From Marinosulfonomonas sp. (lineage in GTDB: Bacteria; Pseudomonadota; Alphaproteobacteria; Rhodobacterales; Rhodobacteraceae): a stretch of 64,000 nucleotides of DNA. Where the stretch lies: positions 1 to 64,000 of the forward strand of contig WFNH01000127.1 of NCBI GenBank assembly GCA_015488685.1. Reading direction: 5' to 3'. The notes beneath the pieces were generated by a model. It did not search any database and was not told where the DNA came from. It saw nothing but the letters and a program-made list of their open reading frames with translations. Below are positions 24,349-61,375 of the stretch, one piece after another. Both the position numbers and the translations under genes were made by a program. Every line of letters begins with the position of its first letter. Position 1 is the first letter of the stretch.

Positions 24349-24434
24349 TGACTGATGGTCTTCTCGTCGCAAATCTGTCTGTGGGAAAGTCCGCACAACT
24401 TTTTTACGGGTTAACAATCCTTGAAATGCAGTGA

Positions 24435-25407
24435 TCAGGCCACTGCAAGCATCCCTTTGGCGGTGGCAACGCTGGTCACCATATGGGTCACATAGCCGCC
24501 CGCAATTGCCGCCAGCATCGGGGCTACCTTGTCGGCCCCGACCGACACCAGCAAGCCCATATCCAGCCCTTGCAGTTTGTCCAGCTCCACCCCGATCATC
24601 CGGTCGTCCAGTTCGCCGGGGATGAACTGTCCTTCCGCATCAATGAACCGGCCGCATAGAACGCCGGTTGCCCCACGCTTGATATACCAGTCCAGATCTT
24701 CGTGGCTGGCCAATCCGCTGCTGACAATATGGCTGCTGTGATCGCATGATCCAGCCGCAAATATCGCTTTGTTACAATGACTTAGGGCGTCTATTTGATC
24801 CTTGATAATCGGCTCGGCCCGCAGGCGGGCGGCCAGTTCGGGGTCGCTTAGAACCGCCGGGGCGTGCAGGTTGATCAATTTCGCTCCCAGCCGCTGTGCC
24901 AGATGGGCGGAGCATATTTCGGCGGTAAACCCGTAGGGCGTGGCCATCGACCCCACAAGTTGCGACACGGTGATATGGTCGGGTCTGCACCTGCGGCATG
25001 GCTTCGGCCATTTCGTAAACCGTTCGGCCCCAAGACACGCCCAGCTTGTCACCCGGCTCAAGCAGCGAGGGAAGCCATTCCGCCGCCCCGCGTGCCACCC
25101 GCAACAGTGCGTCTTCCTCGGTACCAGTGCCGTCGGGCACCACATAAACCGCCGCCAAGCCAAAGCGTTCACGCATTTCCTCGGCCAGCCGATGGGTGGT
25201 AAAGGCCTTGGGCGCCAGCGATATGCGGATAAACCCGCGTTCCTTGGCCTCTTGCAGGTAATTGACCACTGTGGCCCTTGAAACGCCCAGATGGCTGGCG
25301 ATTTCGGTCTGGTTCATGCCATCGTGGTAATACAGCCACGCCGCCTCGATCACGATGCTTTCGCCCGTGACCTGCCCTGTGTTTCGTCTGCGCGTGACTG
25401 TTGCCAT
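24435..25407 (-). pseudogene. SorC/DeoR-type sugar-binding regulator (LsrR-like) interrupted by a frameshift
   Basis: N-terminal part (MATVTRRRNTGQ...GVSWGRTVYEMAEAMPQVQTRP) and C-terminal part (DHITVSQLVGSMATPYGFTAEICSAHLAQ...TSVATAKGMLAVA) lie in different minus frames; junction near 24980-24985. Confidence 0.85.
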
Positions 25408-25440
25408 TTCTATTCCTTTTTTATATTTGACACTATATAC

Positions 25441-25452
25441 TGACAATTGTCA
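25441..25452. promoter_or_regulatory. Perfect palindrome TGACAATTGTCA, operator candidate
   Basis: Between the divergent SorC regulator and the aldolase/SDR gene; shares TTGACA/TGTCAA half-sites with 21754-21771. Confidence 0.6.
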
Positions 25453-25500
25453 AAAAACCCCGCTCGGCGGGGTATGGATCAGAAATTACACAGGTGCATC

Positions 25501-27567
25501 ATGGTTGCAAACCGTTGGGACGACATCGAGGCAAAAAAGATTGCGGCAGAGGCGGGGGGGGACCCGGCCGATCAGGATTTGGCGGTTCAGGCTTACGGCT
25601 CGCGCCTGCTGGGGGCCGATATGGCGCTGGTGCAGCATGGGGGCGGGAACACATCCTGCAAGGCGGTGCGCAAGGATCTGTTTGGCAATGATGTGAAGGT
25701 GCTGCATGTGAAGGGCAGTGGTCATGATCTGGCTCAGATCACACCGGCGGGGATGCCGGCGGTGCGGCTGGAACCATTGCTGGCCCTGCGCGCGCTGGAT
25801 GGCCTGTCGGACGAGGGCATGGTGAACACCGTGCGCTGCAACATGCTGGACGCCAGCGGGCCGAACCCGTCGGTTGAAATCCTGCTGCACGCCTATCTGC
25901 CACACACCTTTATCGACCACACCCATGCCACGGCGATGCTTGCGATTGCCGATTTGCCCGATGCGGCGGCAGTTGTGGACGAAATTTTTGGCGGCAAAGT
26001 GGCCGTTGTGCCGTTCCACATGCCGGGGTTTAATCTGGGCAAGGCAGCGGCAGAGGTCTTTGAGGCCAACCCCGAAGTCGAGGGCCTGCTACTGCTGAAC
26101 CACGGGCATTTCACCTTTGGCGACAGCGCAAAGCTGGCTTATGACCGGATGATCACCCATGTGAACATGGTCGAGGACTGGGTGGCGAAGAAGATGGGAC
26201 GCAAGTTGAAACTTTCCGGCCCGGCGGATGCGGCAACCAAGGCCAAAGCGGTTCAGGTGATGCCGCTTCTGCGCGGTATCCTTGGTGCGCGCCGCGCAGA
26301 ATTTCTGGGCAACCGCGATACATTCATGCCGGTTATGGACCTGCGGGCAGGTGAAAACGTGCAGGAATTTCTGGCCCGCGCGGATTGGCAGGATCTGGCC
26401 AAACGCGGGGTGGCAACGCCGGATCACGTGATCCGTACCAAGAATTTCCCGCTAGTGCTGACCGAACAGACGCTGGCCGGTGGTGCCGATGCGATTGCCT
26501 CTGCTGTTGACGCCTATATCGGTGATTACACTGCCTATTTTGAACGCAACAATGCCCGAGTTGGTGGCGGCAAGATCATGCTGAACCCGGTGCCGGATAT
26601 GGCATGGATCGAAGGGATCGGCATCATCGGCATGGGCGCAAACGCAGGCGAGGCCCGCATCGCCGCCGATCTGGCGGAACAGAACATTGCCGCCATGAGC
26701 ATGGGCGAGGATTGCGGAGGCTTCCACCCTGTGGGCGAAGAAGATCTGTTCGACATGGAATATTGGTCGCTGGAACAGGCCAAGCTGCCCTCGCGCAACT
26801 ACCCACGTTTTGCCGGTCATGCGGTGATCGTTACGGGCGGCGGCGGGGCAATCGGGCTGGCCACGGCACAGGCCTTTGCCGATCTTGGCGCGAATATTTT
26901 GCTTGTTGATCTGTTTGATGAAGCCTTGGACAAAGGGCTGGCGCAACTGGGGCCGGACCACGACGGTATCGCGCTTGACATCACCGCTGACGGCGCGGCG
27001 CAAAAGGCGATTGACGCTTGCGTGGCGCGTTTTGGCGGGGTGGATATTCTGGTCTCCAACGCGGGCGCGGCCTGGACCGGCGAAATGATCGATCTGGACG
27101 ATGCGCTTCTGCGCAAAAGCTTCGAACTGAATTTTTTCGCCCATCAGACATTTTCCAAGGCCGCCGCGAAGGTATTCCAGACACAGGGGCGCGGCGGGCA
27201 GTTGTTGTATAACGTCTCGAAACAGGCGGTGAATCCGGGTAAGGGGTTCGGCGCCTATGGCCTGCCCAAGGCCGCAACGTTCTTCTTGCTGCGCCAATTC
27301 GCGCTAGAGCTGGGACCAATGGGCGTGCGGGTGAACGGCATCAACGCCGACCGCATCCGGTCCGGCCTGCTGGATGACGATTTTATCAAGGAACGCGCCA
27401 AGGCCCGCGGCATCGACGAGGGCACCTATATGGCCGGCAACCTGATCCGCCGCGAGGTCGAGGCGCGGCATGTGGCGGATGCTTTTGTGGCACTGGCAAT
27501 GTCCGAGCGCACTACGGCGCATGTGATGACGGTGGACGGCGGCAATATCGAGGCCGCGTTGCGCTAA
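25501..27567 (+). CDS. Bifunctional class II aldolase / short-chain dehydrogenase (RhaD-type fusion)
   Basis: N-terminal class II aldolase (HGGGNTSCKAV, HTFIDHTHATAML, LLLNHGHFTFGD) fused to SDR (VIVTGGGGAIGLATAQAFADLGA, YNVSKQAVNPGKGFGAYGLPKAA). Confidence 0.9.
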   Translation: MVANRWDDIEAKKIAAEAGGDPADQDLAVQAYGSRLLGADMALVQHGGGNTSCKAVRKDLFGNDVKVLHVKGSGHDLAQITPAGMPAVRLEPLLALRALDGLSDEGMVNTVRCNMLDASGPNPSVEILLHAYLPHTFIDHTHATAMLAIADLPDAAAVVDEIFGGKVAVVPFHMPGFNLGKAAAEVFEANPEVEGLLLLNHGHFTFGDSAKLAYDRMITHVNMVEDWVAKKMGRKLKLSGPADAATKAKAVQVMPLLRGILGARRAEFLGNRDTFMPVMDLRAGENVQEFLARADWQDLAKRGVATPDHVIRTKNFPLVLTEQTLAGGADAIASAVDAYIGDYTAYFERNNARVGGGKIMLNPVPDMAWIEGIGIIGMGANAGEARIAADLAEQNIAAMSMGEDCGGFHPVGEEDLFDMEYWSLEQAKLPSRNYPRFAGHAVIVTGGGGAIGLATAQAFADLGANILLVDLFDEALDKGLAQLGPDHDGIALDITADGAAQKAIDACVARFGGVDILVSNAGAAWTGEMIDLDDALLRKSFELNFFAHQTFSKAAAKVFQTQGRGGQLLYNVSKQAVNPGKGFGAYGLPKAATFFLLRQFALELGPMGVRVNGINADRIRSGLLDDDFIKERAKARGIDEGTYMAGNLIRREVEARHVADAFVALAMSERTTAHVMTVDGGNIEAALR

Positions 27568-46229: not shown

Positions 46230-47360
46230 ATGCGCATATTTCTATTGTGTCGGGGATATCCCAGTAAGGAAAGCCTCTACAACTATCCATTCCTGCACAG
46301 AAGGGTGCTTTGGTATCGGAAATTTGGCCATGAAGTTCGTGTCTTTGTTCTGTCAAACAAGGCGCGTTCATATCGTTTTGAGAGCAGTCATGTTGAAACG
46401 GGGAATGGTGCAACCTTGCGTGATGCGGTGGCTCGGTTTGCCCCCGATTGCATTGCAGCGCATGGAATTGCGGACGACCTTTGGGCGGCGTTGGCGGGTT
46501 TGCCGAAAAGGATACCGGTTTTAGGTTGGGTGCACGGCTCGGAGTTTATTGCGCTTTACAAAACGAACTATCCCGATCCGAATGACCCACGGCGACAAAA
46601 GCAGCAGGAAATCCATGCACGGCGAAAGCAGTTCTGGCGCGGGTTGGTGCGGGATTGGCCGGATAACCTGAAGCTGGTCTTTGTATCGCAAAATGCAGCC
46701 GAACGGTCGCAACAGGATATCGAATGCCCTTTGCCCACTGATAGCTGGAGTGTAATTCACAACCCGATCGATACGGAACTGTTCGATTACAAGGAAAAAA
46801 TGGCTGATCAGCGGTTTAATGTGTTGTCGGTCCGCCCCTATACGAACTGGACCTATGCCAATGATTTGGCGGTCGCGGCCATTGTCCGTATGTCGGCGCA
46901 TCCGCTGTTTGCGCGGTTTTCTTTTCGCATGGTGGGGGACGGAGATCTGTTTGAACAGGTGTTGGCACCGGTGCGGCAATTTGAAAATGTCACATTGGAA
47001 AGACGGTTTTTGACACAGGCAGAAATCAGTGCCGCGCATAAGGAAAACGGCGTGTTTCTGGTGCCGACCCGTGCCGATACCCAAGGGGTTTCCCGCGACG
47101 AGGCAATGTCCTCGGGGTTGGTGCCGGTGACCAATGCGGTTGCGGCTGTGCCGGAGTTTGTATCGCCCGATTGTGGTTGTCTTGTGCCGCCATCCGATGC
47201 GGTTGGGCTGGCTGACGGGATATTGGAGATGGCGCAAAAAACCGATTTGTTCCTTGAAAGGTCCAGACAAGCCGCCGCGCGGGTGCGCCGTCAGAGCGCA
47301 GCGGATATTATTATTCCGGTGGAATTGGCCTTACTGGCAGGTAAAAGGGCAGGGGTATGA
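46230..47360 (+). CDS. Glycosyltransferase, GT4 type
   Basis: GT-B pattern (HNPIDTELFDYKEK, FLVPTRADTQGVSRDEAMSSGLVPVTNAVAAVPEFVS). Confidence 0.85.
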   Translation: MRIFLLCRGYPSKESLYNYPFLHRRVLWYRKFGHEVRVFVLSNKARSYRFESSHVETGNGATLRDAVARFAPDCIAAHGIADDLWAALAGLPKRIPVLGWVHGSEFIALYKTNYPDPNDPRRQKQQEIHARRKQFWRGLVRDWPDNLKLVFVSQNAAERSQQDIECPLPTDSWSVIHNPIDTELFDYKEKMADQRFNVLSVRPYTNWTYANDLAVAAIVRMSAHPLFARFSFRMVGDGDLFEQVLAPVRQFENVTLERRFLTQAEISAAHKENGVFLVPTRADTQGVSRDEAMSSGLVPVTNAVAAVPEFVSPDCGCLVPPSDAVGLADGILEMAQKTDLFLERSRQAAARVRRQSAADIIIPVELALLAGKRAGV

Positions 47361-48136
47361 ACCAATTAAAGCCGGATATCTATATTGCCGCGATGGGACG
47401 GTCGGGCAGCACGATGCTGTGCAATATTCTGACCCGTGAGCCCGATCAGATCATGTTTATCGAGCCTAAATTCCATACACCGCCCTATCGCAACATTCTG
47501 AAACCGCAGTTGGCGCAGTACGGTATGGAATTTGACGAATCCGAAATGGCGGCCGTTCAGGGTCTGCCGCCGGATCAGGTGCTTGAAACTTTGCTGGGGG
47601 CGCATTTGCGGCCTGTCAAATGGGGCTTCAAAGAGGTGCAGTGCAGCGAACACCGGCGGGTTGTCGACCTGTTTGCCCCTGTGCATATTCTGGTGAATGT
47701 GCGGCATATCTTTAACATTGCGCTTAGCTTTTTCGAGAAACACCGCCGGCAGGATAATCAGGACAGGTTTCCGGCATCCTGGGTTAAGGATTATTGCCTT
47801 CGCGAAACACAGGGCCTTGTCGGGTTTTGTCAGGATCTGGCAAAGCGGGGGATTGCTTATCAGGTCGTTCGTTACGAGGATTTCATCACCCGCCCACAGG
47901 AACGCAAGGCACTTGGCGATCATCTGGGCTGGCGCTATGGCGGAAATGCGAACCGGTTCCTAAACGACCTCAATCGCGGCTTCGAGGCCCGCCGCCATGC
48001 CGCAGGCGGTTATCGGGAAACATCGCTTGCCGACCGCGGTTTGTCCGCGCAGGAAATCCGCTATGCCCGCGAGATCGAGGAACAATGTGCGCAATACCAG
48101 GCATTTTTCGGCTATCAAACCGGGGATACGCCATGA
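47357..48136 (+). CDS. Sulfotransferase family protein
   Basis: 5'-PSB-like loop AAMGRSGSTMLCNIL and GFKEV / HILVNVRHIFNIALSFF. Confidence 0.82.
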   Translation: MNQLKPDIYIAAMGRSGSTMLCNILTREPDQIMFIEPKFHTPPYRNILKPQLAQYGMEFDESEMAAVQGLPPDQVLETLLGAHLRPVKWGFKEVQCSEHRRVVDLFAPVHILVNVRHIFNIALSFFEKHRRQDNQDRFPASWVKDYCLRETQGLVGFCQDLAKRGIAYQVVRYEDFITRPQERKALGDHLGWRYGGNANRFLNDLNRGFEARRHAAGGYRETSLADRGLSAQEIRYAREIEEQCAQYQAFFGYQTGDTP

Positions 48137-48888
48137 TCTTAAGCCATAAGCACAGCTTCCTGTTCATCAAGGGGCGCAAAGTGGGGGGCACCAGTATTGA
48201 AATGCTACTGGCACCGTTTTGTGGTCCTTCGGACATTGTAACGCCAATCAGCCCCGTGGATGAAATACGGCGTCTGAATGCAGGGGGGGCACCGCGAAAC
48301 TATTGCCCTGACCCGGCAGTCGAGGCGCGGTATCTGCAATTGGTTCGGGATGGCAGTTTTGACGAGGCGCGAAAAATGCGGGTCCATTCCGACAAGGTTT
48401 ACCCGTTTTTCAACCATATGCCGGTTGCTTTGGTTGAACAATTGGCCGATTTTGATCCCCGCGAATTCACGCTGGCATATGTTGTGCGAGATCCCTACGC
48501 AAAGATCATATCGCTTGCCAATATGAACCTGTCATTTTCAGGCTACAGCGGTGCACCGATGGAGAATAATGCGGCGGATATTCGTCGATCGATCCAGAAA
48601 CTGTTTGAAACAGATCAGTTTTTGTTGGCCCGCAATATCGACCTTTATAAAACTAGGAGTACATACCAACACCAGATAATTTTAAGGCAAGAGCATCTGG
48701 TCAGGGATATACGCAGCTTTATGGACCACTTGGGACTGGATCAAACAGATGCTGAAATTCCCCATGCAAAACAAGGGTCTATCCGCAAGAAATATTCAGC
48801 AAAATCAATGTTTACGCGGGAGCAGCTGGATATTGTGAACCGCGCTTTTGCAGATGAATTCAATCACAACAAATATGAAATGATCTAG
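48133..48888 (+). CDS. Second sulfotransferase family protein
   Basis: FLFIKGRKVGGTSIEMLLAPF PAPS-loop-like N-terminus and AYVVRDPYAKIISL 3'-PB-like motif. Confidence 0.75.
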   Translation: MILSHKHSFLFIKGRKVGGTSIEMLLAPFCGPSDIVTPISPVDEIRRLNAGGAPRNYCPDPAVEARYLQLVRDGSFDEARKMRVHSDKVYPFFNHMPVALVEQLADFDPREFTLAYVVRDPYAKIISLANMNLSFSGYSGAPMENNAADIRRSIQKLFETDQFLLARNIDLYKTRSTYQHQIILRQEHLVRDIRSFMDHLGLDQTDAEIPHAKQGSIRKKYSAKSMFTREQLDIVNRAFADEFNHNKYEMI

Positions 48889-49100: not shown

Positions 49101-49709
49101 TCACTTACCCTGTGAAACAATTTCTTTAACAGTTGCGATGTGGGCTGTTTCTTCGATAATCTCGCATAATTGGAGCGCTTTGAGCATCGTCGAACCCACC
49201 CCAATTGTTCCGTGATTGTGCATAAGTGCGCCGCGAATTGATTTATCTTTAAAAACGTCTTCAACCTGAGCCGCAGACTGCAACCCGCCGTTTTCCCCCA
49301 AAGGGATTGATGGCAGATGCCCCAGTTTTTCAATAGATTGAACCGTTAATAAAGGGATGTCGCGTTTGGCGGACGCCCATCCGGTTGCCCATGGCGAATG
49401 CACATGCACAACCGAATTTACATCCGGACGCGCGCGATAAATAGCCAAATGAAAATCTTTGTCTTTTGAAGGCTTCAATGTGCCCATCAAGATTGTGCCG
49501 TCAAAGCCGACAACCATCAGATTATCGTGGGTGCATTCCGGATAGCCAACGCCGCTTGGCTTGATAACACAGGCGTCAATTCCGGCCAGCCGCACGGACA
49601 GGTTGCCACCTGCATTGGTTTGCAAGCCTTTGTCAAAAGCACGTCGAGCCGTGTCAATCAGGGTTTGGCGTTTCGAATACAAGTCTTGTTCGTCGATATT
49701 GAGGGTCAT
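49101..49709 (-). CDS. Class II aldolase/adducin family protein
   Basis: NAGGNLSVRL, VVHVHSPWATGWA and ALMHNHGTIGVG metal/active-site motifs. Confidence 0.88.
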   Translation of the reverse strand: MTLNIDEQDLYSKRQTLIDTARRAFDKGLQTNAGGNLSVRLAGIDACVIKPSGVGYPECTHDNLMVVGFDGTILMGTLKPSKDKDFHLAIYRARPDVNSVVHVHSPWATGWASAKRDIPLLTVQSIEKLGHLPSIPLGENGGLQSAAQVEDVFKDKSIRGALMHNHGTIGVGSTMLKALQLCEIIEETAHIATVKEIVSQGK

Positions 49710-49710
49710 G

Positions 49711-50895
49711 TTAACTCCGGTCTGATCGTGTTTGGTTTAGAAGATTGAAAAATGTCGCTAGCACCAGATTCTGAAACTCGGGACTGACTATTGCCTCGGG
49801 TGAGATTGTGACGGGGATCTCGGGTGCTAGGTTCTTCTGAAGGGATGATGTGAAAGCTTTGCGCAAATCAGGATCCCACATTGCGCCATCGGGTCTGCTG
49901 CCTTCAACGGAAAACCCGCCCATAGGGACAACAACGGCCACTGGCCCGGTTGCTAAATTCAGGCGTTCAGCCATGATTTTAGCGCTGGTAACAACTTGGT
50001 CGTTTGTCGCACGGATATGTGTATATTCTGGGCTATGACAAAATCTGGGGCGCGTTAATTCATTTGCAGTCAGTGTTTCAAGTCTGCCCCGCGCTAGGAA
50101 ATCCATGCCTCCGGGGACCACCACTTGTGGAATGCCGGTTTTGGCTGCGCTATTCATTCTGTTCTGGCCACAAACGATTGGGGCGCCAAAGCTAAGCCCG
50201 TGCAATTCCTGGGTTGTCAGGTCAATTACCGCGTCCAGCTTGCCATCGGAAATCCAGCGCTCGAACGCGCGCCCTCCCATTCCGGTCGCATGGAAGGTCG
50301 TGACTTCGTAACCAGCAGCATTCAGTTGATCACTTATTCCTGTGACTGCATCGTTTGTTACCCCTAATGCGGTAATGCCTACGATTGGTTTTTCAGGGTA
50401 TTTATGTGAAAGGCTGGTATTTGTAAGGCCAGCCATTACAGCCGCTGCATTTTCCAGTACCTTGCGCAATGTCGGGTTAAGGCCCTGTATATCGGCGACC
50501 GACGGCATAAGGATAATATCGCTGGCAGCAATAGAGGCACGGACATCATATGCCAACGTGCTAACAATGACTTTAGGCCAGCCAAAGGCAAGCTTTTCCA
50601 TTGCCTGAATGCAAACCCAAGTGCCGGTTCCGCCGCCAATGCCGATTACGCCTGCCAAACCTGAATGCATAAGCTTACCTAGCTTTTTATATGCCTTATC
50701 AGCGCTTTCTTGCATGAGATGAATTTTTTGTTCCGGCGTGGATGCGCCATCAGGTTTTTGAATGCTTGTGGGAACTATTACAGTCTTCAGACCATTCGCC
50801 GCCAAGGCAGAGGTCAAAAAATCAGCCTCTGCTTGTTTCGTATCGCAAGTCGCCAATATCGCCACCAGCGGAGCAGATGTATTTTCACCTGTCAT
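49711..50895 (-). CDS. Tm-1-like ATP-binding domain protein (UPF0261 family)
   Basis: VAILATCDTKQAEADFLTSAL, GVIGIGGGTGTWVCIQAME, PIVGITALGVTNDAV, EVTTFHATGMGGRAFE. Confidence 0.85.
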   Translation of the reverse strand: MTGENTSAPLVAILATCDTKQAEADFLTSALAANGLKTVIVPTSIQKPDGASTPEQKIHLMQESADKAYKKLGKLMHSGLAGVIGIGGGTGTWVCIQAMEKLAFGWPKVIVSTLAYDVRASIAASDIILMPSVADIQGLNPTLRKVLENAAAVMAGLTNTSLSHKYPEKPIVGITALGVTNDAVTGISDQLNAAGYEVTTFHATGMGGRAFERWISDGKLDAVIDLTTQELHGLSFGAPIVCGQNRMNSAAKTGIPQVVVPGGMDFLARGRLETLTANELTRPRFCHSPEYTHIRATNDQVVTSAKIMAERLNLATGPVAVVVPMGGFSVEGSRPDGAMWDPDLRKAFTSSLQKNLAPEIPVTISPEAIVSPEFQNLVLATFFNLLNQTRSDRS

Positions 50896-50928
50896 GTAAT
50901 AGTCCCCGCTGGCAGCTATGTTGTAATG

Positions 50929-51798
50929 CTACTTTATTCCGTGTGCTTTCCTGGTCGCCCCGGGAGGCATATCACCAAAATAAAAATGAAGGCCAGGAAT
51001 GTGCTTGCGACGTTCGCGCAGTTTCATGCCTTCATATGGGTAAACATCGCTTTCCCCACATGCCGGATCATGGCAAGGCAACACATAATCAGCGCGCTTG
51101 TCCAGCTCTTCGACCGAACGCCAGCCGTCAACCGAACTAACGAAACGGGCCGGAACCCAGTAGCGCCATTTCTCGTCCTCGTTTGGTTCAAGGTTGCGCC
51201 CGTTGAAGATTGCATCGCCGCACACCACAATATCGCCAACCGAGGTTTCGACCGTTACTGCCATATGGCCCACCGAATGGCCCGGTGTATGGAACATCGT
51301 GATGCCGGGCAAAACCTCTGTTTCATCGTCGATCATTTCAAAGGTGCAGCCCTGGTATGCGGGTTCGATACCGATCGCGGGGCTTTCATATGTCCGGTAG
51401 TATAGTGGCAGCGGGTTATAGGCCATTTCGATTTCGGCACGGGGGGCAATATAACGGGCGTTTTTGAATTCTTTCATGTTTTGCACATGATCCCAGTGTA
51501 AATGGGTGAACACAATAGCATCGATCTCGTCGGGGTGGACGCCCAGTTTTTGCTCCAGATGCTCATGAACCTGCAGGCAACCGCGCTTTTCACAATTGTG
51601 ATGGTATTTTGTGGCACGTTCCTGGTCAGGTAAACCTGTGTCGATCAGGATTTTATGTTCACCCGTATCTACATAATAGCAATAACAGGGTTGCCAGATT
51701 TTTTCACCCGCAGGGCCTTTCCAGAAAACATAGGTGCCCAAATCATTTTGTAGCCAACCGGTGTTGATAGGATATATTTTAGTTTCTGCCACGCCCAT
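50929..51798 (-). CDS. MBL-fold metallohydrolase, lactonase-like
   Basis: FTHLHWDHVQN (HxHxDH), HTPGHSVGHM, GDAIFN, LPCHDP. Confidence 0.88.
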   Translation of the reverse strand: MGVAETKIYPINTGWLQNDLGTYVFWKGPAGEKIWQPCYCYYVDTGEHKILIDTGLPDQERATKYHHNCEKRGCLQVHEHLEQKLGVHPDEIDAIVFTHLHWDHVQNMKEFKNARYIAPRAEIEMAYNPLPLYYRTYESPAIGIEPAYQGCTFEMIDDETEVLPGITMFHTPGHSVGHMAVTVETSVGDIVVCGDAIFNGRNLEPNEDEKWRYWVPARFVSSVDGWRSVEELDKRADYVLPCHDPACGESDVYPYEGMKLRERRKHIPGLHFYFGDMPPGATRKAHGIK

Positions 51799-51825
51799 GG
51801 GTGTACTCCGTGAAAAGAATTGCAT

Positions 51826-51835
51826 ATGTATACAT
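51826..51835. promoter_or_regulatory. Palindrome ATGTATACAT, GntR/FCD-type operator candidate
   Basis: Perfect 10-bp palindrome just upstream of the MBL-fold gene. Confidence 0.4.
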
Positions 51836-51935
51836 TAATAGTTTGTTGCACACATTATGCAACTGCAATTCATAGGAGAATGCAAAATTGCGTTTGACTG
51901 AAGGTTTGCAGCAAGGTTTGGGCGGGCGAGAATAT

Positions 51936-52595
51936 TTATTCTGGGCCGTTAGCTTCAAGAACGCGCATGAAACTATCATTCATATGCTCGCGCATTCCCT
52001 GAACGGCCGCCTCGGAATCGGCCGAGAATATCTTTTGTATTAGAATGGAGTGGGCCTTTGCCGAAGCAAGCAAGTCATCTTGGGTGCGGAATTTTTTCGC
52101 TCTGAATGGACCTGTTTTTCGACGAAAACTAGAAGCCAGCTCACAGATGTAAGGGTTTTCCGCGGCTTGATATATCAGGAAGTGTAGTTTTTCGTTGGCA
52201 TTCAAATAACGAGGTAAATCGCCTTCAGTTGCTGCTGATACACATTCTGCCTGTGCCGATTCTATGTTTGATCGGGCCAACAGGGAAAGGCGTTGCGACG
52301 CAAGCCGTGCGCATATTGCTTCAATTTCGTGCATTGCTTCAAACATCTGTGCCATTTCCTCGCGGGAGTATTCGGCAACCCGCAGGCCTTTACGCTCGGT
52401 TTTTGCAAGAACCCCCTGAGCGGCCAAACGGTTTAGCGCTTCGCGAACAGGTGTGCGTGATACATTGAATCGCGCCGCCAATTTGGTTTCGTCTAGACGT
52501 TCGCCCGGCTCGATACGTCCAATGGCGATGTCGTTCATCAGTTCGGATTCGATTCTGTGGACGCTGGACTTGCGATCTTGTTTTTCTTTTATCAT
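51936..52595 (-). CDS. GntR family regulator with FCD domain
   Basis: GERLDETKLAARFNVSRTPVREALNRLAAQGVL winged helix; helical FCD C-terminus. Confidence 0.92.
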   Translation of the reverse strand: MIKEKQDRKSSVHRIESELMNDIAIGRIEPGERLDETKLAARFNVSRTPVREALNRLAAQGVLAKTERKGLRVAEYSREEMAQMFEAMHEIEAICARLASQRLSLLARSNIESAQAECVSAATEGDLPRYLNANEKLHFLIYQAAENPYICELASSFRRKTGPFRAKKFRTQDDLLASAKAHSILIQKIFSADSEAAVQGMREHMNDSFMRVLEANGPE

Positions 52596-52699
52596 TCGGC
52601 ACCTGTTGAAATTAATCGAAACAGCAATCGCACAAAAATAGCCCAAATATACCCATAAGGACAAGCTACTCTTTCATATTTGCATATTTTACATTGATA

Positions 52700-52709
52700 T
52701 TGCATACAA
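52700..52709. promoter_or_regulatory. TTGCATACAA, GntR/FCD-type operator candidate
   Basis: Near-palindrome in the divergent gntR/ABC intergenic region; TTGCATA also at 52680-52686 and 51820-51826. Confidence 0.4.
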
Positions 52710-52789
52710 ACATGGCATAACTCTTGCGGGACGGAAATATAATTGTGTTGCTGACCAATAGGCGCGCAAATTCGGTGGAATAAATATCA

Positions 52790-53869
52790 ATGCCAAAAAT
52801 AGAATTAATAAATTTGCAAAAAAGCTATGGGGCGGTTTCCATTATTGATGGGCTTGATCTGACCATGGAAGACGGTGAGTTCACTGTGTTTGTTGGGCCT
52901 TCGGGCTGTGGTAAGTCCACCACGCTGCGTATGATTGCAGGTTTAGAGGCTATTTCTGGCGGTGAGATCAGGATTGACGGGCGGGTTGTTAACCGGCTTG
53001 AGCCAAAGGACCGCGATCTGGCGCTGGTTTTTCAAGATTACGCCCTCTATCCACATATGAACGTGGCAAAAAATATGTCTTTTGCCTTGCGCTTGGCCCG
53101 CTATGAAAAATCCAAAATCAATAGTCGTGTAAATGAAGTGGCCGAGATGCTGGGCCTAACTGAATACCTTAACCGCAAGCCTGCCGAACTATCCGGTGGA
53201 CAGCGCCAAAGGGTGGCAATGGGGCGTGCGTTGGTGCGTGATGCGTCGACATTCCTGTTTGATGAGCCGCTTTCAAATCTGGATGCAAAGCTGAGGGCGC
53301 AAATGCGGGCTGAACTGGCCTTGATGAGCCGGCGCATTCAGAAAAACATGATTTATGTAACGCATGATCAAGTCGAGGCAATGACCCTGGGCGACCGGAT
53401 TGTAGTAATGAAATCCGGGAAAATTATGCAAGTTGGCAGCCCGGAAGAGCTGTATCGTTCGCCCGCGAACCTGTTTGTTGCGGGTTTTATTGGCTCGCCC
53501 ACCATGAATTTTCTCAAAGCCGAATTATCCGAAGAGGGTGGACAGATATTTGTTACGGGTCGTGGGTTTTCATTGCCGCTACCCGCCAAATGCAAACCCA
53601 GGCTTTCGTCCCACAATGGGCGTACGGTTATGATTGGATTGCGCCCCAGCAGTTTTTCTGTTGGCGAAGGTGAAGGTTCGATCGAGCTGCCGATAATTCT
53701 GTCAGAATATATCGGCGCGCAATCAGTTTTACTGTCTGAAATGGGCGGGCAAAAAATTACTATTGAAGTCAGTTCCGAGGCACCAATCCCCAGTGGTGCC
53801 CCAATGAATTTTGTCGTCGAAAGCGAAGGAATTCATGTGTTCGATAGCGATACTGAAAAGGCGCTGTAA
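52790..53869 (+). CDS. Sugar ABC transporter ATP-binding protein (MalK/UgpC-like)
   Basis: GPSGCGKSTTLRMIAGLE, LSGGQRQRVAMGRALVRD, FLFDEPLSNLDAKLR, C-terminal TOBE-like region. Confidence 0.93.
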   Translation: MPKIELINLQKSYGAVSIIDGLDLTMEDGEFTVFVGPSGCGKSTTLRMIAGLEAISGGEIRIDGRVVNRLEPKDRDLALVFQDYALYPHMNVAKNMSFALRLARYEKSKINSRVNEVAEMLGLTEYLNRKPAELSGGQRQRVAMGRALVRDASTFLFDEPLSNLDAKLRAQMRAELALMSRRIQKNMIYVTHDQVEAMTLGDRIVVMKSGKIMQVGSPEELYRSPANLFVAGFIGSPTMNFLKAELSEEGGQIFVTGRGFSLPLPAKCKPRLSSHNGRTVMIGLRPSSFSVGEGEGSIELPIILSEYIGAQSVLLSEMGGQKITIEVSSEAPIPSGAPMNFVVESEGIHVFDSDTEKAL

Positions 53870-53921
53870 TGACGTCTTGGGGATAAAACGGCTGTAACGG
53901 GCCACAATAAGGGAGAGAGAA

Positions 53922-55268
53922 ATGAAACATTTCAAAAATATACTTAAGCCGGCGCTGTTAGCGGGCTTGATGGCATTTGGTGCGGGCGGCTTTGCCCAAG
54001 CCGATGTTGCGCCGCAATACAAACCATACGAAGGTACCACGCTTGTTGTGAACTTTCCGGTATTTCCACATTATAATGCCGCAATGAAGGTGATTCAGCA
54101 ATTTACCGAAGAAACCGGCATCAATGTCGAAGTTGACCAGTTGGCCTATCTGAAAATGCGCGAGCGCCAAACGCTGGAATTGACCAAAGACGAAGGCGAT
54201 TATGATCTCATTTCATATGTTGTGTTCTCGAAAGCCGATTATGTTTTTGCCGATCAGTTGGAAAACCTTGCGCGCTATTTCATGAACCCGAAATTGGCCG
54301 ACCCCAATTATGACGCCAAAGATCTGATTGATGGCTACGTGCAAAATATCGGTGTCGCCGGTGGTGAAAAAGGATATCTGCCTGGCCCTACAGGATCGCT
54401 CTATGGTGTTCCATTCGGCGCGGAAACGTCTGCGTTGGCCTATCGTGCAGACATCTTTGAAAAGCACGGTCTGAAGGTTCCTGAAACACTGGACGAAATG
54501 GTAGATATTGCCTGCAAAATTCCACAACTGGAACCGGGCATGGGTGGTTTGGCCATGCGTGCAGCGTCTGGTCACCATGCCAGCCACGCGTTCCTGCTGC
54601 TGTTAAATCCTCTTGGCGGCGCGGTGTTTGATGACAACTGGCAGCCAATTATTAACAACGAGCAAGGTGTCGCTGCGGCGAACATGCTGAAAAAAATCAC
54701 GGATTGCGGTATTGCAGGTGCTAAGACATTTGGCCCATCCGAAGCCGCGGCCGCTTTTTCTTCCGGTCAATATGCGATGTTCCTTGACTCCATCGGTTTT
54801 GCCGCTGGTTTTGAGGACACAAGCAAATCCCAAGTCGCCGGCAAGGTTCAATGGGCGCTACATCCAAAAGGTGTGGTCGCCGCGTCGCAAACAGGTGGCT
54901 TTGGTATTGCTATTCCAAAAAATGCCAAACACAAAGAAGCTGCGTTCTTGTTGCTTCAGTGGCTGACATCCAAAGAAACAGACCTGAAAATCGCTATGGA
55001 AGGCGGCAATCCATCGCGGTTCTCGACATACCAAGATGCAGGGCTAAATGCGAAATACCCGTATTCCGCGACATTTGGCGAAGCGCTGAAATTTGCAAAC
55101 CCTGACTGGCGCCCAATCATCCCGACATGGGGCAAAATCAACGCTGATCTGGGCACGACACTGTCCAAAATCCTGACCGAGGGCCTGGACCCGAAAGAAG
55201 GGCTGGACGGCGTTGCCGAGCGCGCACATGCGATCATGGACGAGGCTGGCTACTACACTTGGCAGTAA
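53922..55268 (+). CDS. Extracellular solute (sugar)-binding protein, family 1
   Basis: Signal peptide; GAETSALAYRADIFEKHGLKVPETLDEM, AMFLDSIGFA, PKNAKHKEAAFLLLQWL. Confidence 0.9.
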   Translation: MKHFKNILKPALLAGLMAFGAGGFAQADVAPQYKPYEGTTLVVNFPVFPHYNAAMKVIQQFTEETGINVEVDQLAYLKMRERQTLELTKDEGDYDLISYVVFSKADYVFADQLENLARYFMNPKLADPNYDAKDLIDGYVQNIGVAGGEKGYLPGPTGSLYGVPFGAETSALAYRADIFEKHGLKVPETLDEMVDIACKIPQLEPGMGGLAMRAASGHHASHAFLLLLNPLGGAVFDDNWQPIINNEQGVAAANMLKKITDCGIAGAKTFGPSEAAAAFSSGQYAMFLDSIGFAAGFEDTSKSQVAGKVQWALHPKGVVAASQTGGFGIAIPKNAKHKEAAFLLLQWLTSKETDLKIAMEGGNPSRFSTYQDAGLNAKYPYSATFGEALKFANPDWRPIIPTWGKINADLGTTLSKILTEGLDPKEGLDGVAERAHAIMDEAGYYTWQ

Positions 55269-55349
55269 TCTAAATCCACGCTTACCGGCCGGGGCGTCAA
55301 TCGCCCCGGCCATTCCACAAATTCAATTCCAATAGCCAGAGTAAACATT

Positions 55350-56267
55350 GTGAATATTCTCAGCATGAATAGGTTAACGCCTTATATGTTTCTTGCCCCG
55401 GCCGCCGCCATTCTGGGCATCGCTTTGCTGTACCCAATCGGCTATATGATTTACGCCAGTTTCCTTGACTGGAATCCAAGCCAACGTATTGGCGAGGCTG
55501 ACTGGGTCGGAATGCGTAATTACCTGAAATTGCTACACGACGAAGCGTTTTGGGAAAGTACTTGGGTAACGATCCGCTTTGCCAGCATTGTTGTGACGCT
55601 GGAAATGATCCTTGGTGTTGGCCTTGCCATGCTGCTGGACCGGAATTTGCGCGGCATGTCTATATTGCGCACAATTTTTATTCTGCCGATGATGATTGCC
55701 CCGATCGTTGTAGGTCTGATGTGGCGGTATATGTACCATCCGCAAGTGGGTATTTTTAACCGCACTCTAAAATCGTTGGGCTTTGATCCGATCCCGTTTT
55801 TATCTGAATCAAACTGGGCATTTGCTTCGGTCATTATTTCCGACGTTTGGCAATGGACCCCGTTTATTTTCATCTTGTCGCTGGCGGCCCTCCAGTCCCT
55901 GCCTAAATCCGCCATCGAGGCGTCGCGCATTGACGGGGCATCGGGTTGGCAGCAGGTTTTGCATATTAAGCTGCCGCTGATGTTGCCCGTGTTAATCGTT
56001 ACCGTTTTGCTGCGCCTGATTGATGCCTTTAAGGTTCTCGAGGTTATCCTGGTGATGACCAACGGTGGCCCGGGTCTCAGCACAGAAGTGCTGGCCCTGC
56101 ACATCAGCCGCACGGCATCCGAATTTCGTGAATTAGGTGAAGCAGCGGCCATGTCGAATGTGCTGTTGTTCCTGTTGATGCTGCTGACAATCTGCATGTT
56201 TGGCTACACGAAATTGCAGGAAAAGCGTAGCCTGCACCTGCGCCAGGCCGCAAAGGAAGAAGTCTGA
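55350..56267 (+). CDS. Sugar ABC transporter permease (MalF/UgpA-like)
   Basis: Six-TM permease with EAA loop (IEASRIDGASGWQQVLHIKLPLMLPVL). Confidence 0.92.
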   Translation: MNILSMNRLTPYMFLAPAAAILGIALLYPIGYMIYASFLDWNPSQRIGEADWVGMRNYLKLLHDEAFWESTWVTIRFASIVVTLEMILGVGLAMLLDRNLRGMSILRTIFILPMMIAPIVVGLMWRYMYHPQVGIFNRTLKSLGFDPIPFLSESNWAFASVIISDVWQWTPFIFILSLAALQSLPKSAIEASRIDGASGWQQVLHIKLPLMLPVLIVTVLLRLIDAFKVLEVILVMTNGGPGLSTEVLALHISRTASEFRELGEAAAMSNVLLFLLMLLTICMFGYTKLQEKRSLHLRQAAKEEV

Positions 56268-57139
56268 TGCCTCAACTAAACCCCCGTCAGAACAATATCG
56301 CGATTTACCCGTTGATGTTTATTCTGGTCATTATGTCGGCTGGCCCGATCGTTTTGATGCTGATGACATCTTTGCGTCTGAATGTTGATATCACTTCACC
56401 AACTGCCAGTTTCTTTTTCACGCCGACAATACGCAATTACGAAACCACGTTATGTGGAGTGCTTTGGTATAAGCCAGAGCACGTTGACTATTGCAACCCG
56501 ATGTTTGGGCGCGCTTTGGTGAACTCGCTGATTGTTGCGATCACCTCGACTGTTTTGACTTTGGTCATTGGGTGCATGGCAGCTTATTCACTGGTGCGGT
56601 TCAAATTTTTTGGTCGTGACGTGGTGTCTATGACAACTTTGATGATGCGTATGGTTCCGCCCGCCGTCCTTTTGGTTCCGGTGTTCGGTATCTGGACGTT
56701 CCAATTCGGTATCAGCGGCACAACAGGCGGTATTATACTGATTTATACCGCAATGAATTTGCCGTTTGTGATCTGGATTTTGCAAAGCTTTATCGTGCAG
56801 GTTCCGATCCAGCTGGAAGAAGCCGCGCGTATGGACGGGGCAGGGCCGTTTCGGGTGTTTTTTCTAGTGGTCTTACCCCTGATCAAACCGGGTTTGGCTG
56901 CTGCTGCGATTTTCACATTTCGCATTGCATGGAACGAATTTTTGTTGGCCAACGCATTGTCTGATCGAAACTCGCGTACCGTGCCGGTGACGATTGTAAA
57001 CAGCCTGTCAGATTTGGGCATTGATTGGGGCGTGTTGATGGCCACTGGAATGTTACTAGCCATCCCGCCCATCCTGTTCACATTTTTCGCCGCTCGCCAA
57101 ATCATCACCGGAATGACGGCCGGCGCTGTAAAGGGCTGA
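56267..57139 (+). CDS. Sugar ABC transporter permease (MalG/UgpE-like)
   Basis: EAA loop ([34 protein letters not shown]); C-terminal [15 protein letters not shown]. Confidence 0.92.
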
Positions 57140-57173
57140 CAACCCCACTAATGCACTCAATCAGGAGACCGAT

Positions 57174-57635
57174 ATGAAACTTGCAATTGCCGGAGACAGC
57201 GCAGGCGAACCGCTCGCTTTGACACTTTATGAGTATTTGAAAGATCGTGAAGGTCTTGATGTAACGGAAATGTCCCACCCCGCGGATGGCGCATCCGAAT
57301 ATTATGCAAATATGGTTGATCGTGTCTGCCGCTACATAGTTGATGGCACCTATGATCGGGCGATTATTATTTGCGGCACAGGGATTGGCGTTTCAATGAC
57401 CGCCAACAAAGTGCCCGGTATTCGTGCAGCTCTCACGCATGACACATATTCTGCTGCCAAGGCTTCGACCTCAAACAATGCGCAAGTTATCACAATGGGC
57501 GCGCGGGTGATTGGCGGTGAAGTGGCAAAAACCATTGCCGATGCTTGGCTGGCAACAGACTTTGACGAACAAGGCCCGTCAGCCGATAATGTTGCGGCGA
57601 TCAATTCGGTAGATGCCAGTTATAGCAAGGTTTAG
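57174..57635 (+). CDS. RpiB/LacAB family sugar-phosphate isomerase (EryI/DerI-like)
   Basis: [57 protein letters not shown]. Confidence 0.88.
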
Positions 57636-58393
57636 ATGACGGCACTGCAACGTGACAGGATATCCAGATATCCTGTCACATCCCACGCCGCGCGCCCAAT
57701 GAACAACCCGTCAATATGCGAGCATTGAATAAGCTCCTCGCAATTTTGGGCATTAACGCTACCGCCATATAGGCATGGAACCTTGCGTCCCAGAATGTCA
57801 TCCGCCAAAGCGATGATTTTCTCGTGACGCTGGTTGGCATAGTCAGCCGAAGCAGGAACCCCGCCAGTTCCAATTGCCCAGACAGGCTCATAGGCCAATA
57901 GGATCGTAGCAGTTTTTTGATTGCCCTTTAACAACCCTAAGGCGCCAGAAACTTGTGCGGCCAATACTTCATCGGCACGTCCCGCATCGCGTTGCTCCAG
58001 TGTTTCGCCAATGCAAATCAACGGGATCAGCCCGTGGCGTACGGCGGCTTCTGTTTTCAGGCCAACGGTTTCATCGGTTTCGCCAAAATATGCGCGGCGT
58101 TCGGAATGGCCCAGTTCAACCAGATCCAGATTGCAATCCGTCAGCATTGGTGCGGAAATCTCGCCTGTCCAGGCGCCCGCATCCTCCCAATGCATATTCT
58201 GTGCGCCAACTTTTACCGATGTGTCTGCCAGAATTTCCTTAACTTGGCGCGTGGCCGTAAATGGCGGCACCACAAACCGCTGGATACGGGGATCGTTCCG
58301 TGTATCGGCAGCCGCAAGGGCATGTGCAAAATCCTCGGCTTCAGCCAGAGTTTTGTTCATCTTCCAACTGGTGCCAACCCAGAAATCAGCCAT
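57632..58393 (-). CDS. Triose-phosphate isomerase-family protein (EryH-like)
   Basis: [50 protein letters not shown]. Confidence 0.88.
57652..57679. repeat. 28-bp near-perfect palindrome inside the 3' end of the tpi-like gene
   Basis: GTGACAGGATATC-CA-GATATCCTGTCAC, 13-bp perfect arms; 17 nt after the convergent rpiB stop. Confidence 0.8.
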
Positions 58394-58406
58394 AATTATT
58401 TCCCCC

Positions 58407-59339
58407 TTAAATGTTCAGATCATCAATGCCGGTGTCGATATACGGCGCCCAAAATTCTATGGATTCAGCGATTTGGGGCACCACTTCACGATCATTAGGT
58501 TCGCGTTCCTTGAATGAAAGTTCCAAACAGATTTCATTGTCGGTGCCGCCGCCCTTGCGAAATGCGGCCATTAGTGGCTCGGGCTGAATTACGCCTTTTT
58601 CATTAAACTCTTTGGTAAAAGGACGATGCCCGCTTTTGTCCAGCAAGGACTGTTTGATGTGAATGATCGGTGACAGTTTTGGCACTGCGCGCGCCCATGC
58701 GTACGGGTCATAATCATCGGGATTATCGCTGGTCACATCGCCATGATCAATATCGGCCATCATCCACATCGGGATTGCCATATTTTGGGCCGTTATCCTG
58801 TCCTGCAACGCCAAAGCTGATTCAATCGTCTCGCCAAATTCACGACCCACCGACATGGGTTCCCAAAACAGAAAATCCAGCCCTGCGGATTTGCCATGCT
58901 CGGCCACCTCGGCCCAGCAGTCCAGTGCGATTTTGATCTGCTCTTCGCGCAAAACCGGATCGTCAAATTCGCGGTAGGTGAAAATCGCAAACTGGGTGCC
59001 GACGGTTCGTGCACCCAGATCAGCCGAGATATCGGCAAAGGTTTTGAACCAGTCTACATAATAGTGCCGCACATCACGATCCGGGTGGCCAAAATGGTTT
59101 AACCGCCCATATGGCCCTGTCATGCCCGATGTAATCCGCACCCCGGTGCGCGCGCATGCGCTTTGCATCTGGCGGGTCATCCGGCGGATTAACTGGGCTG
59201 GCCAACTGGGATTTATAAACTCGTGCGTCAATTGCACATCACGCAATTTCAGGTCGTGTGCGACCATATTTATCAAATCGTCAGGGTCGGCAAACCGGTT
59301 AACCAACGGGTTGGTATTCAACGACAAACTAAAGCTCAT
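58407..59339 (-). CDS. Xylose isomerase-like TIM barrel protein (EryC/tetrulose-phosphate epimerase-isomerase-like)
   Basis: TIM-barrel AP-endonuclease-2-type layout (MWMMADIDHGDVTSDNPDDYDPYAWARAVPKLSPIIHIKQSLLDKSGHRPFTKEFNEKGVI); adjacent to EryH- and EryI-like genes. Confidence 0.72.
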   Translation of the reverse strand: MSFSLSLNTNPLVNRFADPDDLINMVAHDLKLRDVQLTHEFINPSWPAQLIRRMTRQMQSACARTGVRITSGMTGPYGRLNHFGHPDRDVRHYYVDWFKTFADISADLGARTVGTQFAIFTYREFDDPVLREEQIKIALDCWAEVAEHGKSAGLDFLFWEPMSVGREFGETIESALALQDRITAQNMAIPMWMMADIDHGDVTSDNPDDYDPYAWARAVPKLSPIIHIKQSLLDKSGHRPFTKEFNEKGVIQPEPLMAAFRKGGGTDNEICLELSFKEREPNDREVVPQIAESIEFWAPYIDTGIDDLNI

Positions 59340-59623
59340 TTCCGTCCCCGCAAAGAATTTCACCGCTTGGATTCAACGATAAATTTTCAAACCGCATTTG
59401 TTGCGGATACTACATAAATATTTGTGAAATTTCCAGCCTTTACAGCATAATTACCCAACGGATAAAACGGCCCCAACAGTAAGTAAGATCGCGGTCTTCA
59501 ACAAAGAGGTTGATCAGGAATCCATTTTAATTATGCAAATCCATTCTCTCTGTTTAGGGTATCTTATGTGGCTTTCTTCGCTGCGATTTGTGAACCGCCA
59601 GTTTGGAAATGCGGGGTGAATCT

Positions 59624-61375
59624 ATGAAAACGAAAAAGTTAATCAATTCTGCAGACGATGTCATCTCGGAGCTTGTCGAAGGGATGATCAGCGCACATCC
59701 GGACATTTTGACATTGGACGGACAGTCAGGGAGGGCCGTTGTCGCAATTAACGGACCTCATGAAGGCAAAGTCGGCATTGTGCTTGGTGGTGGCTCGGGG
59801 CACGAGCCTGCTTTTTCTGGATATGTTGGCAAAGGGTTGGCTGATGCCGTTGCTGTTGGCAATGTATTTGCATCGCCTTCGCCCAGCCAGATTTGTGATG
59901 CTGCAATCGCTGCAAATGGCGGTGCGGGCGTTGTGTTTTTATACGGTAATTATACTGGCGATGTTATGAATTTTGACATGGCTTCAGAAGAATTGGTCGG
60001 GCAGAATATTAAATCAACTTCAGTCTTGGTGACAGATGATGTCGCCTCGGCACCTGCCTCCAAGGCTGAGGAAAGACGTGGAATTGCAGGCGGTTTCTTT
60101 GTGTTCAAATGCGCCGGGGCGGCGGCAGATCTGGGGTATGATTATGAAACGGTTATCAGGCTGGCAAAACATGCAAATGCCATGACCCGTTCCAGCGGTG
60201 TTGCCCTTGGCGCTTGCTCGTTACCGCAGACTTGTCGTGCAAATTTCGAAATCGGCCCGGAAGACATGGAAATCGGCATGGGGATACATGGTGAACCGGG
60301 GATTGCCCGAACAAAGCTGCAATCGGCCGATGCTGTGGTCGATCAGTTGTTAGAGTTGATCCTTGTGGATATGCCGCTGGGGCAAGGCGATAAAGTGGCT
60401 GTTTTGGTTAACGGGCTGGGCGCGACCTCGTTGATGGAACTGTATATATTGCACCGCCATCTTGATATTCGTTTGAAAGATATCGGTGTGGGAATCCATT
60501 ATTCCTGGGTCGGGAATTATGTAACCGCGCTTGAAATGGCTGGTGCATCTATTTCGTTGATAAAGCTGGATGAAGAACTGGCCAAACTGCTTGATCATCC
60601 ATGCCACACTCCTGCACTAAAGGTTGGCAAGGTGCCCGCACAAACCCCAAATCAACGTATCCCCCGGCAACAAGTGCGGGCCAAACACCGCCAAGAACAA
60701 ACTTTTAAAAAACTTGTGACTGAAGGGGATATCACCCCGGAAATCTTTAGGAACATGCTGCTATCTGCCGCCAAAATTATCAGCAATAATAAAGATTGGT
60801 TGTGCAAGCTTGATGGAGAAATCGGCGATGGCGATCATGGAATTGCGATGGACACCGGTTGGCGTGCCGTTCGTGATGAATTGAATAAATTAGATAAAAA
60901 TGCAACAATATCAATGATGTGCGAACGATCCGCGCAGGCTTTTCTAAGTGCTGTTGGCGCATCCGTCGGGCCGCTTTATGCAACCGGTTTCCAGCGGGCA
61001 GCACAATCTGTGGATGACAGGTTGAACTTGGACAATGCCAGTTTTGTCAAATGGCTGGAAGCAATGGCACAAGGAATCAAAGACCGTGGCGGTGCCTCTG
61101 TCGGCGAGAAAACCATGCTGGATGCATGGGGCCCTGCTATCGATGCCGCCAAGTTGAAAGACACGGTGCTGGAAAGCCTTGATGCTGCCTGTAAAGCAGC
61201 AAAACAGGGCATGGAGGCAACCCGCAACATGAAAGCTGCAAAAGGTCGTTCTGCCAAATTAGGAAACCGTTCCATCGGCCATATTGATCCCGGAGCGGCG
61301 TCTGCTTATCTGATCCTTAGTGCTATCAATGAAGCGGCGCAAATTTCATTTGGGCCGGCATCACCAAGTTGTTGA
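59624..61375 (+). CDS. Dihydroxyacetone/tetrulose kinase, DhaK-DhaL fusion
   Basis: GGGSGHEPAFSGYVGKGLADAVAVGNVFASPS, MGIHGEPG, GDGDHGIAMDTGWRAV, IGHIDPGAASAYLIL. Confidence 0.93.
   Translation: MKTKKLINSADDVISELVEGMISAHPDILTLDGQSGRAVVAINGPHEGKVGIVLGGGSGHEPAFSGYVGKGLADAVAVGNVFASPSPSQICDAAIAANGGAGVVFLYGNYTGDVMNFDMASEELVGQNIKSTSVLVTDDVASAPASKAEERRGIAGGFFVFKCAGAAADLGYDYETVIRLAKHANAMTRSSGVALGACSLPQTCRANFEIGPEDMEIGMGIHGEPGIARTKLQSADAVVDQLLELILVDMPLGQGDKVAVLVNGLGATSLMELYILHRHLDIRLKDIGVGIHYSWVGNYVTALEMAGASISLIKLDEELAKLLDHPCHTPALKVGKVPAQTPNQRIPRQQVRAKHRQEQTFKKLVTEGDITPEIFRNMLLSAAKIISNNKDWLCKLDGEIGDGDHGIAMDTGWRAVRDELNKLDKNATISMMCERSAQAFLSAVGASVGPLYATGFQRAAQSVDDRLNLDNASFVKWLEAMAQGIKDRGGASVGEKTMLDAWGPAIDAAKLKDTVLESLDAACKAAKQGMEATRNMKAAKGRSAKLGNRSIGHIDPGAASAYLILSAINEAAQISFGPASPSC

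Follow-up and report, generated by a model that had tools for sequence, protein, structure and literature searches.

What do three adjoining genes on the minus strand of a Marinosulfonomonas sp. contig (family Rhodobacteraceae) do, and do they act together? The stretch of DNA analyzed, called the window here, comprises 64,000 nucleotides (positions 1 to 64,000 of contig WFNH01000127.1, assembly GCA_015488685.1). The original prediction was that a class II aldolase, a UPF0261/Tm-1-like protein, and a metallo-β-lactamase (MBL)-fold hydrolase, lying beside a GntR gene and sharing its putative operator, form an unexplained branch of the GntR regulon and could process a sugar-acid lactone. The three open reading frames (ORFs) are intact, uninterrupted, and arranged head to tail downstream of the GntR gene, and their Pfam domains agree with the predicted families:

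49101..49709, minus strand: class II aldolase/adducin-type enzyme (ald), 202 amino acids; Pfam Aldolase_II, E 6e-40
49711..50895, minus strand: UPF0261/Tm-1-like protein, stand-alone, 394 amino acids; Pfam UPF0261 N 2.6e-37, C 1e-58
50929..51798, minus strand: MBL-fold hydrolase, 289 amino acids; Pfam Lactamase_B 1.6e-24

The answer we favor, with a probability of about 45%, is that these genes belong to a regulon, under GntR control, that serves the uptake and breakdown of one sugar-acid- or polyol-like compound, in which UPF0261 activates and the aldolase cleaves. An ATP-binding cassette (ABC) system would import the compound, and the MBL hydrolase would hydrolyze an ester or lactone bond. 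UPF0261 would then spend ATP to activate, probably phosphorylate, the MBL product, and the class II aldolase would break a C-C bond, either as a decarboxylase or as a retro-aldolase. The two would work like the kinase/decarboxylase pair OtnK-OtnC, with an unrelated protein as the first enzyme. In this genus the product may be an erythrulose or its phosphate. D-erythrose 4-phosphate would then be formed from it by EryC, EryH, and EryI together with a kinase of the DAK family (window) or FGGY family (genome G001); genera other than this one would use a second class II aldolase (aldolase2) to split a ketose 1-phosphate. The order of lactone opening, ATP-dependent activation, and C-C cleavage is plausible, and activation followed by cleavage is favored because both of the clades examined link UPF0261 with a partner of the C-C-lyase type.

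Control by the GntR protein is the first part of this reading. The elements concerned are as follows:

51823..51838, unstranded: putative GntR operator before the MBL gene, CATATGTATACATTAA; relative-derived matrix, same position in relatives
51936..52595, minus strand: GntR-FCD regulator; Pfam FCD and GntR, 56-68% identity at the same place in relatives
52697..52712, unstranded: putative GntR operator between GntR and the transporter operon, ATATTGCATACAAACA; relative-derived matrix, conserved in 20/21 relatives

The operator matrix (motif ATTTTGTATACAAAAT) was built from 39 sites in relatives only, leaving out the window and its closest relative. Its top two matches in the 64 kb were at 52697-52712 (17.6 bits) and then 51823-51838 (13.2 bits), one in the gap between GntR and the transporter operon and the other before the MBL gene. 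Shuffled sequence gave best matches averaging 12.7 bits, with a maximum of 18.7, and the single operator scores are hence moderate; the support comes from their joint placement, as the chance that both top matches land in the two expected gaps is approximately 1e-5 by our own arithmetic. Relatives carry TTTTGTATACAAAA or a close variant 30-65 bp upstream of the MBL gene (23 of 27 loci) and roughly 60-180 bp upstream of GntR (20 of 21). Of the four exceptions at the MBL gene, three have no GntR gene ahead of it (L072, L075, and L076), and in the fourth (L070) the sequence begins 276 bp before the MBL gene. The putative sites of the regulon are a conserved palindrome, TTTGTATACAAA, present before both operons that flank GntR. 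GntR control of the three genes, on which the original prediction depended, is well supported by these sites.

Intergenic gaps are 33 bp between MBL and UPF0261, 1 bp between UPF0261 and aldolase, and about 110-137 bp between GntR and MBL. Position 51798 appears to be a better choice for the MBL start than the ATG at 51825, because relatives start there and the operator overlaps the alternative ATG. Broken genes were ruled out, as all frames are open in the window. A TGA reported in the genus relatives G001 and G004 was traced to a match that overran the gene end; both ORFs are intact (385 amino acids).

Conservation of the neighborhood was surveyed in 397 Rhodobacteraceae genomes, nearly one per genus. 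The MBL gene occurs in 22 of them (almost all different genera, or about 1 in 18 genera), with an identity of 71-83% when the window itself is set aside (70-83% across the relatives) and 171 of 298 positions conserved. A class-wide MBL search added two genomes, G593 and G779, from two other alphaproteobacterial families; a phylum-level MBL search (299 genomes) and a class-level UPF0261 search (220 genomes) added one further genome, again from Rhodobacteraceae, and brought in no other family. A UPF0261 search of the same 397 genomes, combined with a tree, showed that 21 of the 22 genomes with the MBL gene also have a UPF0261 of the aldolase-paired kind, and in the exception (G129) the contig ends inside the cluster, within the transporter. 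The hypergeometric chance of this co-occurrence is 5e-34 with kinship ignored. The set is therefore widely conserved, as the original prediction needed it to be, and a chance neighborhood is ruled out. Plasmid searches with the three proteins returned distant relatives only, none above 60% identity, and the usual pairing of UPF0261 with a phosphoenolpyruvate (PEP)-hydrolase was seen among these matches. A UPF0261 contig scan of the genomes gave one short contig, from an uncultured Marinosulfonomonas.

Gene maps were drawn for 27 loci plus the window. The usual layout has UgpC, solute-binding protein, permease, permease, UPF0261, and aldolase on one strand and GntR, MBL, a HAD hydrolase (TIGR01459), aldolase2, and an FGGY kinase on the divergent strand. 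The window is rearranged, with EryI, EryH, EryC, and a DAK kinase replacing the HAD-aldolase2-FGGY module. Two kinds of downstream module interchange: one comprises HAD, aldolase2, and an FGGY kinase, the other EryC, EryH, and EryI with a kinase of the FGGY or DAK family. These maps change the predicted extent of the regulon: its core of three genes and GntR holds, but relatives add the HAD hydrolase, the second class II aldolase, and the FGGY kinase. The idea of a separate branch is not upheld, since UPF0261 and aldolase belong to the transporter operon in relatives.

UPF0261 and aldolase behave as one unit. They are adjacent in 26 of 27 loci, and the aldolase-paired UPF0261 proteins form one clade (support 100/99), apart from those beside a PEP-hydrolase-like TIM barrel. 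The pair ends the transporter operon in relatives, and in G007, a Marinosulfonomonas relative, as in the window, it comes after MBL. In the UPF0261 tree the window and G007 branch deeply (stem 0.9) inside the aldolase-paired clade, and in the aldolase tree they are also on a long branch (1.43); GntR, MBL, and the transporter of the window are nested close to G202 and G319. The pair thus appears to have been exchanged, or to be fast-evolving, as one unit, two alternatives that are indistinguishable here. That both genes changed position and diverged together is good evidence of a joint function.

The MBL hydrolase has all of its metal-ligand motifs (HLHWDH, GH, GD, and CHD), and they are conserved in the cluster copies. 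Its best family matches are 4-pyridoxolactonase and AiiA-type N-acyl homoserine lactone (AHL) lactonases, as would be expected if it were a quorum-quenching or pyridoxolactone-type lactonase and the three genes a signal-degradation or vitamin-salvage patch unlinked to sugar catabolism. We consider this highly improbable. The protein scores 94.4 bits against a 4-pyridoxolactonase cut-off of 325 and 82.8 against 375 for another lactonase equivalog, it has Phe three residues after the metal Asp, where AHL lactonases carry a catalytic Tyr, and the locus maps show its gene nearly always accompanied by a sugar transporter or sugar enzymes. Membership in the AHL or 4-pyridoxolactone lactonase families was rejected, as every curated cut-off was missed by far.

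The small aldolase was aligned with E. coli YgbL, FucA, AraD, and RhaD. Three Zn-binding His (HVHS, NHG) and the phosphate-site motifs GGN/PSG/PSK are kept, and Asp replaces FucA Glu73. Among the four references YgbL/OtnC is nearest (84 bits), followed by AraD (78) and FucA (69). All specific cut-offs were missed (OtnC 89.2 vs. 250 bits; AraD 87.5 vs. 389); the predicted aldolase/decarboxylase-type enzyme is thus a class II aldolase family member, but falls below every specific assignment. The best general match is an AraD subfamily model (125 bits vs. a cut-off of 251), which could mean that known pentose or tetritol enzymes (L-ribulose-5-phosphate 4-epimerase, ribulokinase) were assembled here without a joint new function. 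However, Asp120 and a C-terminal Tyr, which we take to be the AraD-specific catalytic residues, have no counterpart in the alignment, and together with the missed cut-off this led us to reject AraD itself. The FGGY kinase of relatives most resembles SePSK, whose preferred substrate of the five tested is D-ribulose (PMC4880283); this also favors ordinary neighbors and makes a C5 ketose a possible alternative to an erythrulose. A pentose route needs no UPF0261, MBL, or HAD protein, yet all are kept together, and we regard an assembly of ordinary neighbors as quite improbable.

The aldolase of the window and G007 has about 20 C-terminal residues fewer than most relatives. The region concerned supplies the catalytic Tyr in FucA and AraD.

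UPF0261 proteins occur in bacteria, archaea, fungi, and plants, where the tomato virus-resistance protein Tm-1 is an example. We know of no activity for any member, and titles, abstracts, and passages returned by a literature search name no enzyme function, which agrees with the earlier remark that no characterized pathway uses a stand-alone Tm-1-like protein. The window protein is a clear member of the family (domains 128.9 and 198.6 bits vs. a gathering score of 27; curated subfamily model NCBIfam PRK02399.1-2, 343.3 vs. a cut-off of 335), with Tm-1 (3wrw/3wry) and 9mpy as relatives in the Protein Data Bank (PDB); its predicted structure is of low confidence (pLDDT 56). Residues T16, K20, E23, D135, N140, D225, E230, R246, and H287 are kept across the two partner clades, the divergent window copy included. 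Since the polar and glycine residues common to both clades are retained, the window gene is not a decayed one. Compared with Tm-1-like systems that include a PEP-hydrolase-like (TBST) TIM barrel, the protein family and conserved polar residues are the same; the partner here is a class II aldolase, the clade is separate, and no TIM-barrel gene of that type adjoins UPF0261 in the window or in aldolase-paired relatives.

UPF0261 might instead be non-catalytic and serve its partner lyase (the aldolase here, the PEP-hydrolase-like TIM barrel elsewhere) as an ATP-dependent activator, chaperone, or sensor. In the loci examined the family travels mostly with a TIM barrel, an aldolase, or a fused ABC ATPase, and passages of one paper discuss a signaling role for the fused plant protein (PMC5028733). 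Against this, the polar and glycine residues conserved across clades resemble an active site, and we judge a non-catalytic role unlikely. A broader reading, tentative and on balance less likely than not, extends the favored one to the whole family, whose members would be ATP-dependent sugar-acid-activating enzymes (kinases or acyl-phosphate formers), each feeding a C-C lyase of its own, namely a class II aldolase here and a PEP-hydrolase-like TIM barrel in many bacteria, in archaea, and in the plant Tm-1 fusion.

In two loci (L052:7351-9594, minus strand; L082:6044-8221, plus strand) an ABC-transporter ATPase domain precedes UPF0261 in a fused protein, and a PEP-hydrolase-like gene adjoins it. 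Similar fusion ORFs of 720-750 amino acids occur in L006, L007, L010-L012, and L048; Pfam confirms two fusions of the whole set. A further UPF0261 clade of the family (L013-L017) has neither an aldolase nor a TIM-barrel partner, and its neighbors resemble, by eye, aldehyde dehydrogenase and CoA-transferase genes.

The remaining genes of the window cluster would supply uptake and the last steps of the pathway:

52790..53869, plus strand: UgpC-type ABC transporter ATPase; blast to cluster members
53922..55268, plus strand: solute-binding protein of a sugar/polyol ABC transporter; Pfam SBP_bac_1
55350-56267 and 56267-57139, plus strand: two ABC permeases; orthologues in the same order in relatives
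57174..57635, plus strand: RpiB-type D-erythrulose-4-phosphate isomerase (EryI/DerI), in the transporter operon; NCBIfam NF051858, 240.5 vs. cut-off 240
57632..58393, minus strand: triosephosphate isomerase (TIM)-family isomerase, EryH-like by context; Pfam TIM, adjoins EryC and EryI also in G001/L059
58407..59363, minus strand: EryC-type erythrulose-1-phosphate 3-epimerase; PDB 4k3z E 1.9e-175, 85% identity to the G001/L059 copy
59603..61375, plus strand: single-chain DAK-family ketose kinase (dihydroxyacetone/erythrulose kinase type); Pfam Dak1 and Dak2, NCBIfam PRK14479, 612 vs. cut-off 492

The nearest solved chains to the solute-binding protein are 5iai and 4rya, and because 5iai was solved with ribitol bound (PMC8468352), a short polyol-like ligand is suggested. 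In some lineages the associated genes hint at a substrate form that is anionic and perhaps sulfated, each association being seen once or twice only. No ABC genes adjoin the cluster in G779 (L054/L077) and G176 (L074), which have a TctA-type tripartite transporter there and one to three choline-sulfatase-like sulfatases beside it, and G347 has a TRAP-type binding protein (by sequence) and an alkyl-sulfatase near the cluster. At L076, whose cluster version has neither GntR nor the small aldolase, an alkyl-sulfatase (MBL and dimerization domain; L076:10543-11820, minus strand) and a TRAP-type binding protein lie near the cluster. Dehydroascorbate is a lactone that decays chemically to erythrulose and oxalate; it was considered as substrate and set aside, as nothing in the cluster handles oxalate.

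EryC is a D-erythrulose-1-phosphate 3-epimerase, and LerI and DerI carry out the steps on to erythrose 4-phosphate (PMC10733421). The EryC orthologue matches 4k3z over nearly its full length; the EryH-like protein matches general TIM models only, and its label comes from its neighbors. Genome G001, of the same genus, has the run MBL-aldolase2-FGGY-EryC-EryH-EryI. Aldolase2 was not found anywhere in the genome of the window, and neither was the FGGY kinase, although that genome offered no positive control for the empty FGGY search. Aldolases of the RhaD/FucA type can form D-erythrulose 1-phosphate from dihydroxyacetone phosphate and formaldehyde (PMC10733421), so the kinase-aldolase2 and kinase-EryCHI modules could both consume an erythrulose 1-phosphate. 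Erythritol/tetritol catabolism (EryC, EryH/LerI, EryI/DerI, and LerK) shares EryC, the EryH-like TIM, and EryI with the window and G001, and the window has DAK. It differs in that the polyol kinase EryA and dehydrogenase EryB/EltD were not seen among the genes examined near the cluster, and the front end in the window is MBL-UPF0261-aldolase.

The interchange of modules also bears on whether the substrate has two parts. MBL could split an ester conjugate into an acid and a ketose or polyol, with UPF0261-aldolase taking one half and FGGY-aldolase2 (DAK-EryCHI in the window) the other. The basic cluster has two pairs of "ATP enzyme plus class II aldolase", only the second of which is swapped for EryCHI/DAK, with UPF0261-aldolase and MBL remaining, and the nearest solved binding proteins are polyol types. 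However, no esterase specificity is known for MBL, the HAD hydrolase is unexplained either way, and a linear pathway accounts for the same genes; a two-part substrate therefore has a low probability in our view.

For the favored linear pathway, the closest known parallel is the 3-oxo-tetronate pathway (LtnD/OtnI/OtnK/OtnC; E. coli ygbJKLM), in which OtnK and OtnC carry out phosphorylation and then decarboxylation (PMC12540250). Each places an ATP-using enzyme (putatively so for UPF0261) next to a protein of the class II aldolase fold within a sugar-acid operon, and OtnC is the E. coli reference nearest to the window aldolase. Membership in this pathway was rejected, as model cut-off, kinase family, and dehydrogenase all fail: the aldolase is under the OtnC cut-off, UPF0261 is unrelated to OtnK, and the window cluster (genes 49101-61375) is without a DUF1537 kinase, an LtnD dehydrogenase, or OtnI. 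D-apionate catabolism reportedly (work of 2018) uses a lactonase, an oxidoisomerase, a kinase, and a decarboxylase, and its logic of lactone opening, an ATP step, and decarboxylation to L-erythrulose or its phosphate would be the same; the window has no oxidoreductase or RuBisCO-like decarboxylase, and all its enzymes are from other families. A literature search found no paper assigning this gene set, and almost nothing on UPF0261 function and apionate.

Several points weigh against the favored reading. Hhalign gave no profile similarity of UPF0261 to OtnK (YgbK; probability 0.2%), which rules out a route via DUF1537 homology, and ATP use by UPF0261 is taken from the family name and from work on Tm-1. 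A dedicated kinase (FGGY or DAK) is also present, so UPF0261 may not be a kinase. The aldolase scores only slightly higher against OtnC (84 bits) than against AraD (78). No operator match was found near EryH, EryC, or DAK with the same matrix in the 64 kb, and their regulon membership thus rests on neighborhood. Finally, neither the conserved set nor the cluster includes a dehydrogenase; for an imported polyol this would be odd, and the compound therefore probably arrives at the right oxidation state.

Elsewhere in the window, two sulfotransferase-like genes (47357-48888), the first with a weak Sulfotransfer_3 match and the second without a Pfam match, end a surface-polysaccharide cluster just upstream of the three genes. 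Positions 21890-27567 encode an APH-type kinase, an IF-2B/MtnA-like isomerase, and a bifunctional class II aldolase/short-chain dehydrogenase, which looks like a methylthioribose/5-deoxyribose-type or rhamnose-type disposal set.

The regulon points to an unnamed carbon source of marine Rhodobacteraceae and their relatives. If UPF0261 is a sugar-acid activator, this would be the first pathway in which the function of the family can be read, and it would explain the role of plant Tm-1 when it is not blocking virus replication. Through its transporter, its readable operator, and the constant lyase partner of UPF0261, this compact, conserved regulon makes UPF0261/Tm-1 function tractable by standard bench work.

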